Origin: Psychrobacter maritimus
GTDB taxonomy: Bacteria > Pseudomonadota > Gammaproteobacteria > Pseudomonadales > Moraxellaceae
Assembly: GCF_904846345.1 (NCBI RefSeq)
Contig: NZ_CAJHAJ010000004.1
Span: forward strand, 186,001-250,000
DNA: 64,000 nucleotides
Direction: 5' to 3'
The notes under the pieces were generated by a model, which saw only the letters and a program-made list of their open reading frames with translations, was not told where the DNA came from and did not search any database. Position numbers and translations under genes: made by a program. The first letter of the stretch is position 1. Each line of letters starts with the position of its first letter. Below are positions 2-19,387 of the stretch, one piece after another.

Positions 2-1087
2 AAAGAAGCGAAGCTTGCTACTTTACATGCTGGCACCTATTTATATGAAATTGGCGCCGCCCTTAAAGAGCATGGTTTGGCGTTAGAAAATATGGGCGAT
101 GTGCAAGCGCAAACTATCGCTGGTGCTGCCAGTACGGCGACCCATGGCACAGGAATTACTTTAGGCTCCATTGCCAATCAAGTAGTGACATGGGAGTGGG
201 TCGATGGCAAAGGAGAAGTACATACCCATCATCGCGGCGATCCGAAAACCGATGAGTTAGGTAATGCCTTGCATGCAAGCCTTGGTATGCTTGGTATTTT
301 TACCAAATTAACCCTTAAAGTAGTCGACCTATACGGGCTTAAAGAAGCCAATGAGGTGTTAGATTTTGAAGAAGGATTGGCGCGCTTTCATGAAACGGCG
401 CATAGCCATCGTCATTTAGAATGGTTTTTATTTCCTGGTACCAATAAAATTCAGCAAAAGACGCTGTCGGTGATAGCGCCCAAAGCCATGACGGGCACGC
501 AAAAGCTTAAAGACCATTTTGATAGCGTTGTTACCCTTAACGGCGCTTTTTATGTGCTGTGCGAGCTGGCACGTATGAAGCCGTCGCTGACCCAAAAGGT
601 GAGTGAAATCTCCGCAAACTCTATCCCTAATACCAAGCGTGAAGGTTATAGCTATGAGGTGTTTCCGACACCGCGCGGCGTCAAGTTCAATGAGTCTGAG
701 TACTTTATTAAGCTATCTGATTTTGATGAATGTATCTCAGAGGTCAATCATATTTTATTAAAAGACAATAAAGGCTCGCACTTTCCCATCGAAGTGCGCA
801 CGCATAAAGGCGAGACTGGTATGCTCAGTCCCACGCAGGGAGAGGATTGCGCGGTATTGTCCTTCCATGTCTATAAAGGCATGGACTGTGAGCCGTTATT
901 TAAATGGCTATATGATTATATGAAAAAATGGCAGGGTCGACCGCATTGGGGTAAAGTAAATAAATTGAACCATGTGGAGCTACAAAATCTGTATCCAAAG
1001 CTCAATCGCTTTTTAGAGATTCGCCGAGAGTTTGACCCTGATAATGTCTTTATGAATAGCTGGCTTGAGCAAAAATTTTGTATTTAA
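2..1087 (+). CDS. FAD-linked sugar-1,4-lactone oxidase (5'-partial)
   Basis: This is the C-terminal part of an FAD-binding oxidoreductase of the D-arabinono/L-gulono-1,4-lactone oxidase family, which oxidises aldonolactones. The reading frame is open from base 2, so the N-terminal FAD-binding half lies before the window and any start inside it is an artefact. Visible family signs are the HGTG segment of the FAD domain, about 50 residues in, and a GRPHWGK motif near the C-terminus typical of the ALO domain. The C-terminal FDPDNVFMN stretch also fits. A bidirectional terminator follows. The physiological substrate cannot be told from sequence. Confidence 0.85.
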   Translation, partial: KEAKLATLHAGTYLYEIGAALKEHGLALENMGDVQAQTIAGAASTATHGTGITLGSIANQVVTWEWVDGKGEVHTHHRGDPKTDELGNALHASLGMLGIFTKLTLKVVDLYGLKEANEVLDFEEGLARFHETAHSHRHLEWFLFPGTNKIQQKTLSVIAPKAMTGTQKLKDHFDSVVTLNGAFYVLCELARMKPSLTQKVSEISANSIPNTKREGYSYEVFPTPRGVKFNESEYFIKLSDFDECISEVNHILLKDNKGSHFPIEVRTHKGETGMLSPTQGEDCAVLSFHVYKGMDCEPLFKWLYDYMKKWQGRPHWGKVNKLNHVELQNLYPKLNRFLEIRREFDPDNVFMNSWLEQKFCI

Positions 1088-8918: not shown

Positions 8919-10172
8919 ATGCAATCAATTAATCTACCTAGCAAGCCACCAAGCTCGCCGCATCCCATACTCAATTTGAGCTTTCGGATATTTTTTAGCG
9001 CAGGGGCACTATTTGCCATTATAACCATGGCGTTGTGGGCATTTGTGTTTACCGGCCATACAGATATCGATGCGCAAACGTTGAATCCGCTGTATTGGCA
9101 TGGTCATGAAATGATTTACGGCTATGCGCTGGCCATCGTGGCGGGATTTTTATTGACAGCGGTAAAGACTTGGACGGGCGTTATGATGCCGCATGGCTAT
9201 AAGCTGCTCGGTATTTTTGTCTGTTGGTTGCTGGCGCGCTTGGGTTGGGTGGGATTTGGCTTAGGCATCACGATTGCTGGTAGCAGCGCGGCGTTACTAT
9301 ATGCGGCGGCGGTATTTGATTTATTGTTCATCGGCTCGATGGCTTTTGTGATTTTCCGTGCAGTATTACAAGTTAAGCAATATAAGCAAATGGGGATTTT
9401 AGCCAAGCTTGCATTATTAACAGTGGGCAATGCTTTGTGCTATTGGGGCATTATCAGCGCCAATATGAATCTGACCAAAGTTGGTGTTTATTTAGGTTTT
9501 TATTTGATTATCGGCTTGGTATTGACCATCGGTCGCCGCGTAGTGCCGTTCTTTATTGAGCGTGGTCTAAGTGTGGCAAATGCTCAAGGTGAAACCGAAG
9601 CAGTAACGGTACGTAATAATAAAGCGCAGGATATCGCAAGCTTATTGTTCTTTTTTGCCTTTTTTATCACTGATATGTTTTATCCCAATAAATACTTGCT
9701 GACCATCAGTGCACTTGGGGTGGCGGTGGTCAACATCGTACGCTTAGTTGGCTGGTATCATCGCGGCATTTGGCAAAAACCGTTACTATGGTCGTTATAT
9801 ATCGCCTTTTTAGGGATGTGTGTGAGCTTTGTATTGTACGCACTGCAGCCATGGTTAGGCTATAATCACAGCATTGCGGTACATGGATTATCGCTTTCCG
9901 GTATTGGCATGATGACGGTGGCGATGATGGCGCGGGTGTCACTCGGTCATACGGGGCGCAGTATCCATCAGCCACCCAAAATCGTCAATGCAATGTTCGT
10001 GCTTATGGTAGTGGCGTTTGTCAGTCGGGTATTTTTGCCATTAATCGATATGAGTCATTACTTATTATGGATTATGCTGGCACAAAGCGCTTGGATAGCT
10101 TGTTTTGCCTTGTTTTGTATCAGTTATTTGCCGATACTGGCACGCCCGCGACCAGATGGTTTATTTGGCTAA
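8919..10172 (+). CDS. nnrS: NnrS family membrane protein
   Basis: A 417-residue polytopic protein with about twelve hydrophobic segments. It has the family pattern of an N-terminal LSFRIFFSAGALFA, a WHGHEMIYGYALAIVAGF histidine motif (about residues 60-77), and GRRVVPFFIERG in the middle. HGLSLSGIGMMTVAMMARVSLGHTGR lies towards the end. NnrS proteins are haem- and copper-containing inner-membrane proteins that protect against nitric-oxide stress. An NsrR-type site lies immediately upstream, and an NsrR-type regulator gene follows 160 bp downstream in the same orientation. Confidence 0.92.
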   Translation: MQSINLPSKPPSSPHPILNLSFRIFFSAGALFAIITMALWAFVFTGHTDIDAQTLNPLYWHGHEMIYGYALAIVAGFLLTAVKTWTGVMMPHGYKLLGIFVCWLLARLGWVGFGLGITIAGSSAALLYAAAVFDLLFIGSMAFVIFRAVLQVKQYKQMGILAKLALLTVGNALCYWGIISANMNLTKVGVYLGFYLIIGLVLTIGRRVVPFFIERGLSVANAQGETEAVTVRNNKAQDIASLLFFFAFFITDMFYPNKYLLTISALGVAVVNIVRLVGWYHRGIWQKPLLWSLYIAFLGMCVSFVLYALQPWLGYNHSIAVHGLSLSGIGMMTVAMMARVSLGHTGRSIHQPPKIVNAMFVLMVVAFVSRVFLPLIDMSHYLLWIMLAQSAWIACFALFCISYLPILARPRPDGLFG

Positions 10173-10334
10173 TAAGGTGTTGAAACGGTTAAAATGCAAT
10201 TGATTTAAAATTTAAGTCATTTAAACGCTAAACAGCTTTAAAAGTTAAACAGTTTAAAAGCTAAAGCGACTTAAAACATAGCATTATTTCACATTATAAA
10301 GTTAATAGTTATAACAACCATTGGAGTGCAAAAA

Positions 10335-10922
10335 ATGCGACTGACCAACTATAGTGATTATGCGCTGCGCTCATTAATATATTTGGCGACCAAGCCTGAG
10401 CCGCACCTATTGGCAAATATTAGTGATATTGCCAACAGTTATCACATTTCTAGAAGTCATTTGACCAAAATTATTCATCAGCTCGGGCAACTTGGCTATA
10501 TAGATAGCGTGCGCGGTAAAAACGGTGGGATTCGCTTGGCGTGTGCGCCAAAAGACATCAATTTGGGGGTGTTAATCAAACAGATTGAGCCTGATTTTAA
10601 TTTGGTTGAATGTTTTTCGACCGATTTATTGATTAATCCTAAGCCTGACAATGCTAATTCTGACAGCTCTTTTAATGGTACTGATGATAATGCGGTTGCC
10701 AAAGATTTGTCTTTGACGCTGATTGATGAGGAAGCAAGTGCGGGGGTCAAGTCAGGCTGTATTATTAGTCCTGTCTGTCAGCTAAAACAGGTATTCTTTG
10801 AAGCGTTGACCGCTTTTATCAACGTCCTTGAGCGTTATACATTGGCAGATATTATCAGTAATGAGGCAGAGCTTGCGGAGTTATTGTTTTATAGAAATGG
10901 CCTAAATAGCTTTGTAAAATAG
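10335..10922 (+). CDS. nsrR: Rrf2-family regulator, NsrR-like, with cluster-loop insertion
   Basis: A 195-residue winged-helix Rrf2 regulator. The ATG at 10335 is chosen over an in-frame GTG at 10326 because it gives the canonical MRLTNYSDYALR start with GGAG 8 bases upstream. The DNA-binding helix lies around ISRSHLTKIIHQL and the wing at VRGKNGGIRL. Three C-terminal cysteines (93, 142, 148) correspond to the NsrR iron-sulphur ligands. However, 48 residues separate the first two where E. coli NsrR has four; the insert is polar and Asn/Asp/Ser rich. The YTLADI end matches NsrR. It probably senses nitric oxide and represses nnrS. Confidence 0.85.
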   Translation: MRLTNYSDYALRSLIYLATKPEPHLLANISDIANSYHISRSHLTKIIHQLGQLGYIDSVRGKNGGIRLACAPKDINLGVLIKQIEPDFNLVECFSTDLLINPKPDNANSDSSFNGTDDNAVAKDLSLTLIDEEASAGVKSGCIISPVCQLKQVFFEALTAFINVLERYTLADIISNEAELAELLFYRNGLNSFVK

Positions 10923-11100: not shown

Positions 11101-11847
11101 TTAAGCATTTTCAAGCTTAGGACGGGCTTTATCAATGGCTTTTAATAAGGCTTTTTCAAACTCACCCTCTTTAAACTTCACTAAATAAGAATGCGCGGCA
11201 CAGAAGTTACGTACCTCGCGCCATTCGTGCGCCAGATTGGTCGCCCAGTCGCAATACTGCTTGCCAGCATTAGGCTCATCTTTTAGTGCTTTTTTGGTCG
11301 TTGGGTGCAATAACAGTTCCGGTAGCACCGCTTCTAGTAATTTGGTTGGTGGACTCATAAAAGTATCATCGACGTGCAAGCTTTTACTGGCAGGATGGAA
11401 TACCAACAGCGAGCCTGCATGAATCATCTCATTGGGCGAGATATAATGAATACCTTCTGACATAGAAAACTTCAGCTCAGGGTAGCGCTTGGCGACCGCA
11501 TCGCTTTCGACCAAATCGTCTGCCCATTGAATTTCGGGGATTTTTTTATGATGACGGCTACTGCCATAAAAAGTTGCTTGCGGGAAATCCTTTGCCATTT
11601 GTGCGCAGTGGACAGTATGAAAGGGGTGGACATTGAGGACCGCTTCGACATCTTGCCCATTGTTGGTTAAGGCCATTACCTCAGTGCGTACGTCGCCGGT
11701 GAGCTCGTAGCTGTCTAAAAATATAAAGCGACCTGAGGCTAATTTTACAAGCGAGCACTGAGTGCCTATATTTAGCACCCCGCCTAAGCGAAACGTGCCA
11801 CGAATATTCCAAAATCCTGCACCCAAATCATGTATTTTATCGGTCAT
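11101..11847 (-). CDS. Metallo-beta-lactamase-fold-like protein, uncharacterised
   Basis: A 248-residue cytosolic protein with no signal peptide. An initial beta-rich segment (residues 10-50, ending FIFLDSYEL) is followed by NVHPFHTVHC at about residues 77-86, in the place of a metallo-beta-lactamase HxHxDH motif, and then LHVDDTFMS near residue 160. This looks like an MBL fold with a degenerate metal site. Catalysis is therefore uncertain. The start is followed by normal coding sequence, and AAGGAAAAGC lies upstream of the ATG. It is separated by 314 bp from the upstream PETase-like gene. Confidence 0.65.
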   Translation of the reverse strand: MTDKIHDLGAGFWNIRGTFRLGGVLNIGTQCSLVKLASGRFIFLDSYELTGDVRTEVMALTNNGQDVEAVLNVHPFHTVHCAQMAKDFPQATFYGSSRHHKKIPEIQWADDLVESDAVAKRYPELKFSMSEGIHYISPNEMIHAGSLLVFHPASKSLHVDDTFMSPPTKLLEAVLPELLLHPTTKKALKDEPNAGKQYCDWATNLAHEWREVRNFCAAHSYLVKFKEGEFEKALLKAIDKARPKLENA

Positions 11848-12161: not shown

Positions 12162-13166
12162 CTATACACAGTTTTTATAATCGTAAGCCGATATACGGGG
12201 GCTGTTGCCATAATTTTCATTGTTGCATAAAAATTTATCGAAGCGAGTATCACCATTTATGTAGCGATGCATCCAAGCAATACCTGGTTTACTGAGTAAT
12301 ATCTCGTTAAAGCGATAGCTTGGACAAAAGTGGCTGCCGTTTTTTATCTCAATTTTCATTTTTGCGCCAGCAGCATTATTATAAAACGGACTGCTGTACT
12401 TTTTATTAGAGGCAATGCGGTCATTTTGACAGGTAATAAATAAAGCAGGCGTGTCCATGTTGCCGTAGTCTTTATCATGATAGGGCGTTTGCGGAATAAT
12501 GGCCCGAATGTCACTGCGCTTGGTCGCTAACTGCAGCGCGCCACCACCCCCCATTGACCAGCCGATAGCGCCCAAACGTGTGCTATCTATTTGCGCACCC
12601 ACCGTACTATCGCTAAGAATATGATCGAGTGCGGCGCTCAACTGCGTCGCACGGCTATCGGGGTCATCATAAATAGAGTTGGTATCGATAGTAATCACCA
12701 CAAATCCCCAAGATGCCAGACGCGGCCCCCACCATTTGATAGAGGCTTCATAAGACACATAACCGGGAATCACCGCGATACCGCCTAACAAACCGCAGTC
12801 ACCAGCATTGGTTGGATAATGAATGGTTCCGCCGCCGAAGCCATTGGCTAGTTGCCGAGGAACAGATTTACTTGCCACCGTAAAAGGACCATTATCGCGC
12901 GTAGCTGACAGCTCAGCCGCTGTAATGACACTGTCAGGAATACAGTTTGAGGTAGGCGATGCTGATGTTGTCGTGGTTAAAGGTATTTTAGTTGCGGGCA
13001 CTTTGGTTGCTAAGGTGGCGGTTGACAGCTCATTAATTGAAAGCTTTTCAATTGCTGGCTGTCTAATTGGGGTTATTTCTTCTGATGTGACCGCTGCCAC
13101 ATGCATAGAAACAATCAGTGCGCCTGTCGCGGCAATCAATCTTGGATAAATAGCGTTGTTTAACAT
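12162..13166 (-). CDS. Secreted PETase-like polyester hydrolase (cutinase-like alpha/beta hydrolase)
   Basis: A 334-residue secreted hydrolase. Residues 1-25 look like a Sec signal, and residues 31-75 form a Thr/Ser/Pro-rich linker. From about residue 90 the protein follows the Ideonella PETase/cutinase fold closely (GPFTV, YPTNAG, IKWWGPRLASWGFVVITIDTN). Catalytic residues are Ser204 in GWSMGGGG, Asp249 and His279; Tyr136 fits the oxyanion position. Cys246/Cys281 correspond to the extra active-site disulphide of type II PET hydrolases, and Cys314/Cys333 to the C-terminal one. Tyr229 replaces the wobbling Trp185 and Phe280 replaces Ser238 of PETase. Natural substrates could be lipids or polyesters. 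No strong ribosome-binding site is seen at the ATG. Confidence 0.9.
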   Translation of the reverse strand: MLNNAIYPRLIAATGALIVSMHVAAVTSEEITPIRQPAIEKLSINELSTATLATKVPATKIPLTTTTSASPTSNCIPDSVITAAELSATRDNGPFTVASKSVPRQLANGFGGGTIHYPTNAGDCGLLGGIAVIPGYVSYEASIKWWGPRLASWGFVVITIDTNSIYDDPDSRATQLSAALDHILSDSTVGAQIDSTRLGAIGWSMGGGGALQLATKRSDIRAIIPQTPYHDKDYGNMDTPALFITCQNDRIASNKKYSSPFYNNAAGAKMKIEIKNGSHFCPSYRFNEILLSKPGIAWMHRYINGDTRFDKFLCNNENYGNSPRISAYDYKNCV

Positions 13167-17107: not shown

Positions 17108-17192
17108 AGTTCTGGCAGGGATAGCCAGTTTTATATTATGATATTATTGAATAAGAGCGTATCTTATAAAGCATCATATTATGAAGTTATAT

Positions 17193-17252
17193 CTTATAAC
17201 ATCGCTTCTTATAACATCGCTTCTTATAACATCGCTTCTTATAACATTGCTT
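17193..17252 (+). repeat. 15-bp tandem repeat, four units
   Basis: The unit CTTATAACATCGCTT occurs at 17193, 17208, 17223 and 17238; the last copy has one change. It lies 50 bp upstream of the chosen start of the propionyl-CoA synthetase gene. Because 15 is a multiple of three, the frame stays open through it (a SYNIA repeat). Confidence 0.9.
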
Positions 17253-17302
17253 TTTATAAAAACTTACAGCATTACCCATCGTTTACGCTAAGGACAGCCA
17301 TT

Positions 17303-19387
17303 ATGAACGAGCAAGCTAACTCTCAAACCAGCAATCAAGCTGTGAATCACAATAATAATCAAAGCTTCAATCAATCCTCTAGCCAAAATTCTCAAGCGTC
17401 ATTTGATAGCAAGCAAACCTTTGCAGATATTTATCAGTCCTCCATTGATAATCGCGAGCAGTTTTGGGCTGAGCAAGCCAAGCGCATTTATTGGCATAAA
17501 GAGCCTGAGCAAATCCTTGATGACAGCAATCTGCCGTTTGCTCAGTGGTTCGTCGGCGGTGAGACCAACCTTTGTTATAACTGTGTCGATCGCCATCTTG
17601 CAGAGCGCGCAGAGCAGGATGCTTTTATTTGGCTATCCTCTGAGATTAACCAAGAATTAATCGAAACCTTTCCTACCGTCGTCGATGCTTTTAAAGATTT
17701 GGGCAATAACGTTGAGCTTTATACCGACTATACCAAGCGTCGCCTGACTTATAATGACCTTTATAAAGAAGTCAATTACTTTGCCGATGTACTGCAGCGT
17801 CATGGTATCGGCAAGGGCGATCGTGTCATCATTTATATGCCGATGATTTTAGAAGCGGCTTATGCCATGCTAGCCTGCGCGCGTATCGGTGCCGTACATT
17901 CGGTGGTATTTGGTGGCTTTGCTGCCCATAACTTGGCCATTCGTATGGATGACGCCGAAGCAAAAATGGTCATCACTGTCGATGCGGGTCTACGTGGCGG
18001 TAAGGTTGTTAATTATAAGAGCCTCGTCAATCAAGGCATTGAGCAAGCAACTCTCAAGCCTGAGCATGTACTAGTCGTCAATCGTGGTGTATTGCCGTTT
18101 GAGAAAAAAGCTATCGATGTCGATTATGCAACCCAGCGCCGTATCAGTTGTGAAGCCAATGCGATTGTTGAGCCAGTCTGGTTAGAGTCCAATACGCCAT
18201 CTTATTTGCTTTATACCTCAGGTACTACTGGTACACCAAAAGGTGTGCAGCGTGATACCGGCGGCCATGCAGTGGCGCTAACGACGTCTATAGATTATAT
18301 CTACGATGGCAAGGCGGGCGAGACCTTTTGGGCGATATCTGATATCGGCTGGGCGGTTGGGCATTCTTATAGCATTTATGCGCCATTGCTCGCTGGCATG
18401 ACCAGTGTGATGTATGAGGGCTTGCCACATCGTCCAAACCCAGGTATTTGGTGGCGGATTGTCGAAGCAAATAAAGTGAATATTCTATTTACCGCACCGA
18501 CGGGTGTGCGTATGCTGAAAAAACAAGATGAGACATGGATGACGCGCTATGATGTCTCTAGCCTTAAGTCATTCTTTTTAGCAGGTGAGCCACTTGATGA
18601 GTCAACAGCCAATTGGCTGACCAAGCATTTAGGGGTGCCAATTTTAGATCATTATTGGCAGACAGAATCTGGTTGGCCAATTTTGAGCAATACGCCCAAA
18701 TTTAATCATAAACCGCACAAACAAGGCTCGCCCGGTTATCCGATGTATGGCTATGATGCCCACGTCATCAATGAAGAAACCGGCGAGCTTTGTAAAGCTG
18801 GTGAAAAGGGCTTACTCGCCATTCGCGCTCCACTGCCGCCTGGTTGTCTCACGACTGTATGGCGTAATGACGAGCGCTTTATCAGCAGCTATTTTGGTCT
18901 GTTTGATGGCAAGCACTACTCTACATCAGACTATGCAGTGACCGACGACGACGGTTATTTTTATATTTTAGGACGCACCGATGATGTGATTAATGTCGCC
19001 GGTCATCGTATTGGTACGCAAGAGATTGAGGAAGCCATCAGTACCCATCCAGAGATGGCTGAATGTGCGGTCGTGGGTATCAAAGATCAATTAAAAGGCG
19101 AGTTGCCGATTGCTTTTTGTGTGCTAAAAGACCATGAGCAAGTGGCGACGACAGAAAACCGTTTCCGTATTGAGCAGCAAGTGATTGGTGCGGTAGTAAA
19201 ATCCTTGGGCGGTATCGCTCGTCCAGCCGCGATTTATTTCCCGCAAGCATTACCCAAAACGCGCTCTGGCAAAATCTTACGCCGCGCTATTCGTGCTTTA
19301 GCAGAAGGTAATGAGACGGGAGATATGTCAACGCTTGATAACCCAACAGCGATTGATGCGATTAAGCAGTCGATGAAAGACTATTAA
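17303..19387 (+). CDS. prpE: Propionyl-CoA synthetase / acetyl-CoA synthetase family
   Basis: An ACS-type AMP-forming synthetase. The ATG at 17303 (MNEQANSQTSNQ) with AAGGACA upstream is preferred over a frame opening at 17138 through a tandem repeat. The product has 694 residues, including a Gln/Asn/Ser-rich tail of about 35 residues before the QTFADIYQSSIDNREQFW core. Motifs are YTSGTTGTPKGVQRDTGGH, DHYWQTESGWP and GRTDDVINVAGHRIGTQEIE. The acetylatable lysine is in LPKTRSGKILRR. DAGLRGGKVVNYK and VVGIKDQLKGELPIAF favour the PrpE branch over acetyl-CoA synthetase. It would feed propionate from valine breakdown back to propionyl-CoA. Confidence 0.88.
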   Translation: MNEQANSQTSNQAVNHNNNQSFNQSSSQNSQASFDSKQTFADIYQSSIDNREQFWAEQAKRIYWHKEPEQILDDSNLPFAQWFVGGETNLCYNCVDRHLAERAEQDAFIWLSSEINQELIETFPTVVDAFKDLGNNVELYTDYTKRRLTYNDLYKEVNYFADVLQRHGIGKGDRVIIYMPMILEAAYAMLACARIGAVHSVVFGGFAAHNLAIRMDDAEAKMVITVDAGLRGGKVVNYKSLVNQGIEQATLKPEHVLVVNRGVLPFEKKAIDVDYATQRRISCEANAIVEPVWLESNTPSYLLYTSGTTGTPKGVQRDTGGHAVALTTSIDYIYDGKAGETFWAISDIGWAVGHSYSIYAPLLAGMTSVMYEGLPHRPNPGIWWRIVEANKVNILFTAPTGVRMLKKQDETWMTRYDVSSLKSFFLAGEPLDESTANWLTKHLGVPILDHYWQTESGWPILSNTPKFNHKPHKQGSPGYPMYGYDAHVINEETGELCKAGEKGLLAIRAPLPPGCLTTVWRNDERFISSYFGLFDGKHYSTSDYAVTDDDGYFYILGRTDDVINVAGHRIGTQEIEEAISTHPEMAECAVVGIKDQLKGELPIAFCVLKDHEQVATTENRFRIEQQVIGAVVKSLGGIARPAAIYFPQALPKTRSGKILRRAIRALAEGNETGDMSTLDNPTAIDAIKQSMKDY

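Follow-up and report, generated by a model that had tools for sequence, protein, structure and literature searches.

The 64,000-nucleotide stretch of Psychrobacter maritimus DNA analysed here (the window) carries an open reading frame of 334 amino acids plus a stop codon, beginning with ATG, where the original prediction had placed a gene for a PETase-like secreted polyester hydrolase without naming the strand, which is the minus strand (Table 1). An ORF of 108 amino acids on the opposite strand (12823..13149) overlaps it. A scan counted 9 promoter-like sites, where shuffled sequences averaged 5.3 (sd 2.0), and 0 terminator-like sites, where shuffling gave 1.5. Elsewhere in the window, the propionate-CoA ligase ORF 17138..19387 has SYNIA repeats at its beginning, encoded by a 15-base tandem repeat of 4.5 copies (17192..17259); the genuine start codon of this ORF probably lies further in. 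At 8919..10922 an NnrS gene stands beside an Rrf2-family regulator, for which the best match is NsrR at a score below that model's cut-off; the two are perhaps a nitric-oxide response pair.

Table 1. Features of the hydrolase locus, with positions in the window and the evidence for each
Feature	Position	Strand	Evidence
Gene of the Mors1 clade, for a probable polyester hydrolase / lipase	12162..13166	minus	ORF, PDB sequence match, PF12740
Signal-like N-terminus, residues 1-27	13086..13166	minus	judged by eye
Thr/Pro-rich linker, residues 28-73	12948..13085	minus	low model confidence, poor conservation
Predicted catalytic alpha/beta-hydrolase core, residues 74-334	12165..12947	minus	PDB sequence match, model, structure search
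Cys75 (Mors1 Cys60), presumed third disulphide	12942..12944	minus	alignment, excerpted PMC11509169
Cys124 (Mors1 Cys109), presumed third disulphide	12795..12797	minus	alignment, excerpted PMC11509169
Tyr136 (IsPETase Y87)	12759..12761	minus	alignment
Nucleophile elbow Trp203-Ser204-Met205 (IsPETase W159-S160-M161)	12552..12560	minus	alignment
Tyr229, subsite I (IsPETase W185, Mors1 Tyr214)	12480..12482	minus	alignment, excerpted review PMC11509169
Cys246 (IsPETase C203), presumed partner of Cys281	12429..12431	minus	alignment, excerpted PMC11509169
Catalytic Asp249 (IsPETase D206)	12420..12422	minus	alignment
Catalytic His279 (IsPETase H237), Phe280 (S238), Cys281 (C239)	12324..12332	minus	alignment, conservation
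Cys314 (IsPETase C273), presumed C-terminal disulphide	12225..12227	minus	alignment
Cys333 (IsPETase C289), presumed C-terminal disulphide	12168..12170	minus	alignment
Neighbour, 248 amino acids, downstream of the hydrolase gene	11101..11847	minus	model like metallo-beta-lactamase-fold proteins

With a score of 296.9 bits (E 1.7e-88), where the curated cut-off is 28, the protein matched the PET hydrolase family of Pfam (PF12740). Because the same family also matched in 6 of 14 control genomes, exceeding the cut-off in 4 of them, we regard the Pfam label alone as unspecific, and give more weight to the PDB match and to the individual residues. The closest sequence in a PDB search with the protein was 8spk (E 7.9e-139). 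With these two scores and the low dN/dS of the core (given below), coincidence can be dismissed as the source of the resemblance. The NCBIfam equivalog for bis(hydroxyethyl) terephthalate hydrolase (NF051441) scored 248.1 bits, below its cut-off of 520. Structural modelling had been proposed as a check on the original prediction, and the resulting AlphaFold model (30 sequences; mean pLDDT 76.9, pTM 0.79) matches the PET hydrolase fold: PET hydrolases and cutinases came first in a structure search, and 8spk, which is the nearest solved structure by fold as it is by sequence, was matched with a Z score of 40.4 and an rmsd of 1.8 over 263 residues. On the basis of this fold match, Ser204, Asp249 and His279 are predicted to come together as a catalytic triad. 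An ordinary carboxylesterase was set aside on the PF12740 score, the PDB sequence match and the fold match.

The entry 8spk is titled "Crystal structure of Antarctic PET-degrading enzyme" and its molecule is named Lipase 1. From the title, the name and the numbering (model residues 44..307 against 56..319), which places Cys60, Cys109 and Tyr214 at the expected sites, we infer that 8spk is Mors1, the enzyme of Moraxella sp. TA144 (P19833). Our protein is identical to it at 196 of 261 aligned core residues (75%), and has in common with it the fold, the triad, the Trp-Ser-Met elbow and all six cysteines, which are the only cysteines that it contains (75, 124, 246, 281, 314 and 333). As excerpted, a review (PMC11509169) describes Tyr214 and Asp153 of Mors1 as replacements of two conserved subsite I residues, and gives the enzyme a Cys231-Cys266 bridge at the active site and, as the third, one between Cys60 and Cys109; adding 15 to the Mors1 numbers gives Tyr229, Asp168, Cys246-Cys281 and Cys75-Cys124 in the 334-residue protein. 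At the IsPETase positions W185, Q119, S238 and S242-G243, both proteins have Tyr, Asp, Phe and Tyr-Arg, respectively. Counting against a Mors1-like reading is the quarter of aligned core residues that differ.

Every residue named by the original prediction is present at its given number in the alignment with the PETase of Ideonella sakaiensis (IsPETase), to which the protein is 42.0% identical (118 of 281 aligned residues). The two share the triad, the residues equivalent to Tyr87, Trp159 and Met161, and both cysteine pairs of IsPETase, and they differ at Trp185 (Tyr in our protein), Ser238 (Phe), Gln119 (Asp) and Ser242-Gly243 (Tyr-Arg), as well as in the extra cysteine pair and long linker of the Psychrobacter protein; on IsPETase, Cys75 aligns with Tyr32 and Cys124 with a gap. 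Cys246 and Cys281 align with C203 and C239 of IsPETase, and the protein thereby has the second, active-site cysteine pair of type II enzymes. The loop following the catalytic His is one residue shorter than in IsPETase in an alignment that holds no type I sequences; for an exchanged loop region, the excerpted text of PMC11509169 gives 15 residues in Mors1 against 13 in LCC. In subsite II, Phe280, Tyr284 and Arg285 are unlike their IsPETase equivalents, and the same excerpts liken subsite II of Mors1 to those of other type IIa enzymes; a research paper assigns PE-H to type IIa and IsPETase to type IIb. Among other characterised enzymes, PET6 of Vibrio gazogenes (7z6b) is 52.1% identical over the 236 residues compared, and has Phe at the S238 position, as our protein does, but Trp at the W185 position, unlike our protein. 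PET6 too has a third disulphide near its N-terminus, according to the review excerpts (PMC11509169).

A further comparison was made with the M5-PETase pattern as given in an excerpt of PMC12224614. The protein has the elements G-x-S-M-G and [PG]-G-[YF] and the full triad. The tail of the pattern is printed there as DxDxR(Y)xxFxC, to which the NGDTRFDKFLC of our protein gives no letter-for-letter match; the tail of 8spk, NNDTRFDKFLC, likewise fails it, and the TA144 sequence is counted as M5 in that same excerpt.

The original prediction had also proposed a phylogeny including Moraxella TA144 lip1. In a maximum likelihood tree of 59 rows, our protein and other Psychrobacter proteins, 17 rows in all, form a clade (100/98), which joins a 7-row group holding Mors1 to form a 24-row clade, starred in the tree (98/92), in which all rows besides Mors1 come from Psychrobacter. 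The rows were drawn from the PETase family only, with no carboxylesterase among them, so that this placement with Mors1 is not in itself a test of grouping with carboxylesterases. The nearest kin of Mors1 in the set are the proteins of L017, L039 and L018 (88-92%), and our protein is a cousin in the sister clade. With the active-site cysteine pair aligned, the tree joining the protein to Mors1 and PET hydrolases and cutinases leading the structure matches, the type II polyester-hydrolase reading of the original prediction is supported.

The Moraxella TA144 enzyme itself nests among Psychrobacter rows, at 92% to L017. In a family sample of 249 genomes from 16 genera, the hydrolase was found in Psychrobacter only, in 45 genomes, and in none of the 15 other genera sampled (E 1e-20). 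Given the nesting and the lack of matches in those 15 genera, TA144 may be a Psychrobacter.

Three features had been singled out in the original prediction as setting the enzyme apart, and all three prove to be shared. Tyr229 is the equivalent of Tyr214 in Mors1, and the Cys75/Cys124 pair is the equivalent of the Cys60-Cys109 bridge of the Mors1 crystal structure, as described in the review excerpts; all three residues are invariant in the 39 Psychrobacter rows, a count that includes our own protein and omits the incomplete L036, as does the tree. Outside Psychrobacter, Tyr229 occurs in 6 of the 16 rows compared, which come from Pseudomonas and further members of the Pseudomonadales. Position 280 is Phe in 35 of the 39 Psychrobacter rows (Leu in 3, Ser in 1) and in 16/16 of the others, so that Phe280 is the common state and Ser238 of IsPETase the exception.

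A Psychrobacter PET hydrolase is, moreover, already in print. The genome paper of P. nivimaris LAMA 639 names one, at 69.5% to the Moraxella enzyme in the excerpted text (PMC8857425); it belongs to another subclade (L023) and has Asn at the position of Asp168 and His at that of Tyr284. An ISME J paper, too, reports PETase genes of Moraxellaceae members that are transcribed (excerpt of PMC12224614). With its flagged features shared with Mors1, the observation is real but ordinary.

Residues of the substrate site vary across the Psychrobacter set, with Asp, Asn, Arg, Gln or His at 168, Phe, Leu or Ser at 280, and Tyr, His or Ser at 284. The L035 protein has Gln168, Ser280, Ser284 and Gly285, as IsPETase does at the aligned places, and keeps Tyr229. 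P. glacincola ACAM483 carries two PETase genes, L035:7923-8810 and L017:8001-8933. The alignment omits ORFs shorter than 250 amino acids (fragments in L036 and L043), and L056-L062, among the 61 loci collected, gave no ORF match and were left unused. In L036 and G048, whose coordinates fit one record, the hydrolase is split across two frames, through either a genuine mutation or an error in sequencing.

The core is preceded by the Thr/Pro-rich linker of about 45 residues noted in the original prediction, which we place at 46 residues with 32.6% Thr plus Pro, against 11.1% in the core. In the AlphaFold model pLDDT is below 50 over the N-terminal 44 residues of what is presumably the mature chain, and among relatives the linker varies in both sequence and length; N-terminal lengths of 116 (nine rows) and 124 (one row) were taken from the longest ORF and are likely overlong. 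The core is under purifying selection, with dN/dS of 0.027-0.060 against seven relatives, and the linker drifts: its ratio is about 0.3-0.6 in six relatives (zero silent differences were counted with L015), over 22-46 codons. Taken together, the low model confidence, the divergence and the selection ratios are more in keeping with a spacer than with a binding module. GspD secretin, the one secretion gene looked for, is present in the same genome (516.5 bits; cut-off 351.35), and together with the N-terminus that appears signal-like by eye it makes export of the product likely.

The hydrolase gene was found in 50 of 105 Psychrobacter genomes (E 1e-20); its absence from the other 55 indicates that it is non-essential in the genus. 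The positions found in these genomes agree with named Psychrobacter records; G024:C6:79238-80239, for instance, corresponds to L015 of P. immobilis S3 (98.5% identical). An MFS transporter gene is present at 35 of 39 Psychrobacter hydrolase loci; L016 and L035 represent other sites, and the flanks of L035 differ. For comparison, we picked by hand 16 loci from genomes that were among the neighbour matches listed and had no hydrolase match, all of them chosen as holding the neighbour gene described below. The MFS gene lies nearby in 13/16, which implies that the site exists without the hydrolase in those species. On a tree of two neighbour genes with 48 rows (13 of the 16 hydrolase-free loci and 35 of 40 hydrolase loci, our own included, the others having no usable neighbour copy), hydrolase presence changes at least seven times, and at least three of the changes are forced by well-supported branches. 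Repeated loss is the simplest reading of this pattern, and exchange at the site may be another. A plasmid-borne gene was rejected as a candidate: tblastn against plasmids gave 5 records, all below 60% identity and none covering 80% of the query in one place.

Downstream of the hydrolase lies a gene whose 248-residue product had no significant Pfam or NCBIfam match (DUF4336 at E 0.17). Its model (mean pLDDT 76.3, pTM 0.80; residues 162-188 below 50) resembles metallo-beta-lactamase-fold proteins at TM 0.49-0.57 on its own length, rmsd at least 5.9 and identity 8-16% among the 50 matches listed, and the protein probably has that fold in diverged form. One to three homologues follow the hydrolase on the same strand at 36 of the 39 Psychrobacter loci (short in L011 and L036), with gaps of 120-1624 bases between hydrolase and neighbour. 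In one subclade (L006, L008, L009, L010, L013, L014, L020 and L038), an opposite-strand ORF of 263-264 amino acids separates the two genes.

This recurrent arrangement raises the idea that the hydrolase pairs with its neighbour, which would process the products released, and it gains from L035, a second PETase locus where, despite the other flanks, two genes of the neighbour family also come after the PETase gene. We nevertheless judge such a pairing improbable, since the neighbour family is in 96 of the 105 Psychrobacter genomes and the hydrolase in 50, the neighbour stays beside the MFS gene in 13 of the 16 hand-picked hydrolase-free loci, it has no signal sequence by eye, and the gaps speak against a single operon in many loci. 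Its presence in hydrolase-free genomes weakens the case for a dedicated partner gene. We attach a similarly small probability to the fuller proposal that the hydrolase acts on a natural polyester derived from a host or from the habitat and that the neighbour finishes the breakdown of its oligomers; if that were true, Psychrobacter would have a natural polyester-use module whose residues 168, 280 and 284 differ between lineages so as to suit the polymer at hand.

In PET hydrolases of this family, the catalytic Ser attacks the ester, His and Asp relay the proton, and the acyl-enzyme is then hydrolysed. In the protein described here, Ser204, His279 and Asp249 would cleave esters through such an acyl-enzyme, with the oxyanion held by the backbone of Met205 and Tyr136. 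Three disulphides (75-124, 246-281 and 314-333), if formed as the aligned cysteines suggest, would brace the core. Export would proceed through Sec and then, presumably, the type II secretion system, and the linker would be the spacer that remains once the signal peptide is removed. The native job would most likely be the extracellular scavenging of acyl esters and aliphatic polyesters, substrates that we infer, and PET cleavage would be a side activity.

What is known of Mors1 bears on these proposals. According to the excerpts of PMC11509169, polycaprolactone clearing by Mors1 is at its best at 25 C, a temperature at which PET also loses weight, and amorphous PET film is eroded by 1.98% within 6 days. 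MoPE, which is the same Moraxella enzyme, is described in excerpted text as hydrolysing PET weakly. With such close kinship, a Mors1-like activity of our protein is likely, and polyester activity at low temperature may be expected by extension from Mors1. We are highly confident that the product belongs to the Mors1 clade and is a secreted ester hydrolase, and less sure that it has a useful polyester activity.

That second point is where a different reading enters, one compatible with the first: the enzyme may act mainly as a lipase or esterase on lipids in soluble or emulsified form and lack any useful activity on polyesters, and shared ancestry would then account for its resemblance to PET hydrolases. 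The TA144 gene entered the literature as that of a lipase (a reference in the excerpt of PMC12224614) and 8spk is named Lipase 1; in the text excerpted, monomer release from PET by MoPE was almost 300-fold below that by engineered LCC; and no tannase-family (MHETase-like) gene was found in any of 105 Psychrobacter genomes. A tannase-family gene was likewise found in none of 14 control genomes, and the tannase model matched in 3 of 114 genomes of a class sample, 2 of them above the cut-off. Set against the lipase reading is Mors1 itself, 75% identical and with the same aligned subsite residues, which in the excerpts of PMC11509169 acts on both polycaprolactone and amorphous PET film. We consider a lipase without useful polyester activity possible, though somewhat unlikely.

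Far more doubtful, to the point of being scarcely credible, is a dedicated plastic-degrading enzyme adapted to PET, for all that the family and the catalytic residues are those of tested PET hydrolases. The gene occurs across the genus, in most cases at the same site (the MFS gene at 35/39 loci), and its core is kept by purifying selection. The TA144 sequence was already out in 1990 (again as referenced in the excerpt of PMC12224614). The lack of an MHETase-like gene in the 105 genomes also argues against use of PET, as does the presence in the genome itself of a single gene resembling a ring-hydroxylating dioxygenase alpha subunit. On the genus-wide spread, the 1990 sequence and the absent tannase-family gene, we reject adaptation to plastic as the native role.

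The gene probably encodes a secreted enzyme that cuts esters and polyesters and is a close cousin of Mors1, the plastic degrader from the Antarctic that has been characterised in the laboratory. Most likely this enzyme is a cold-active lipase/polyesterase that belongs to the Mors1 clade, is secreted and cleaves PET incidentally, and our best guess for the native role is the hydrolysis of natural esters. The distribution suggests that Mors1-type polyesterases are a Psychrobacter trait, carried by roughly half of the species searched (50/105) and mostly at one site. The Psychrobacter set further offers natural variants, at positions 168, 280 and 284, for probing what tunes the hydrolysis of polyesters in the cold.
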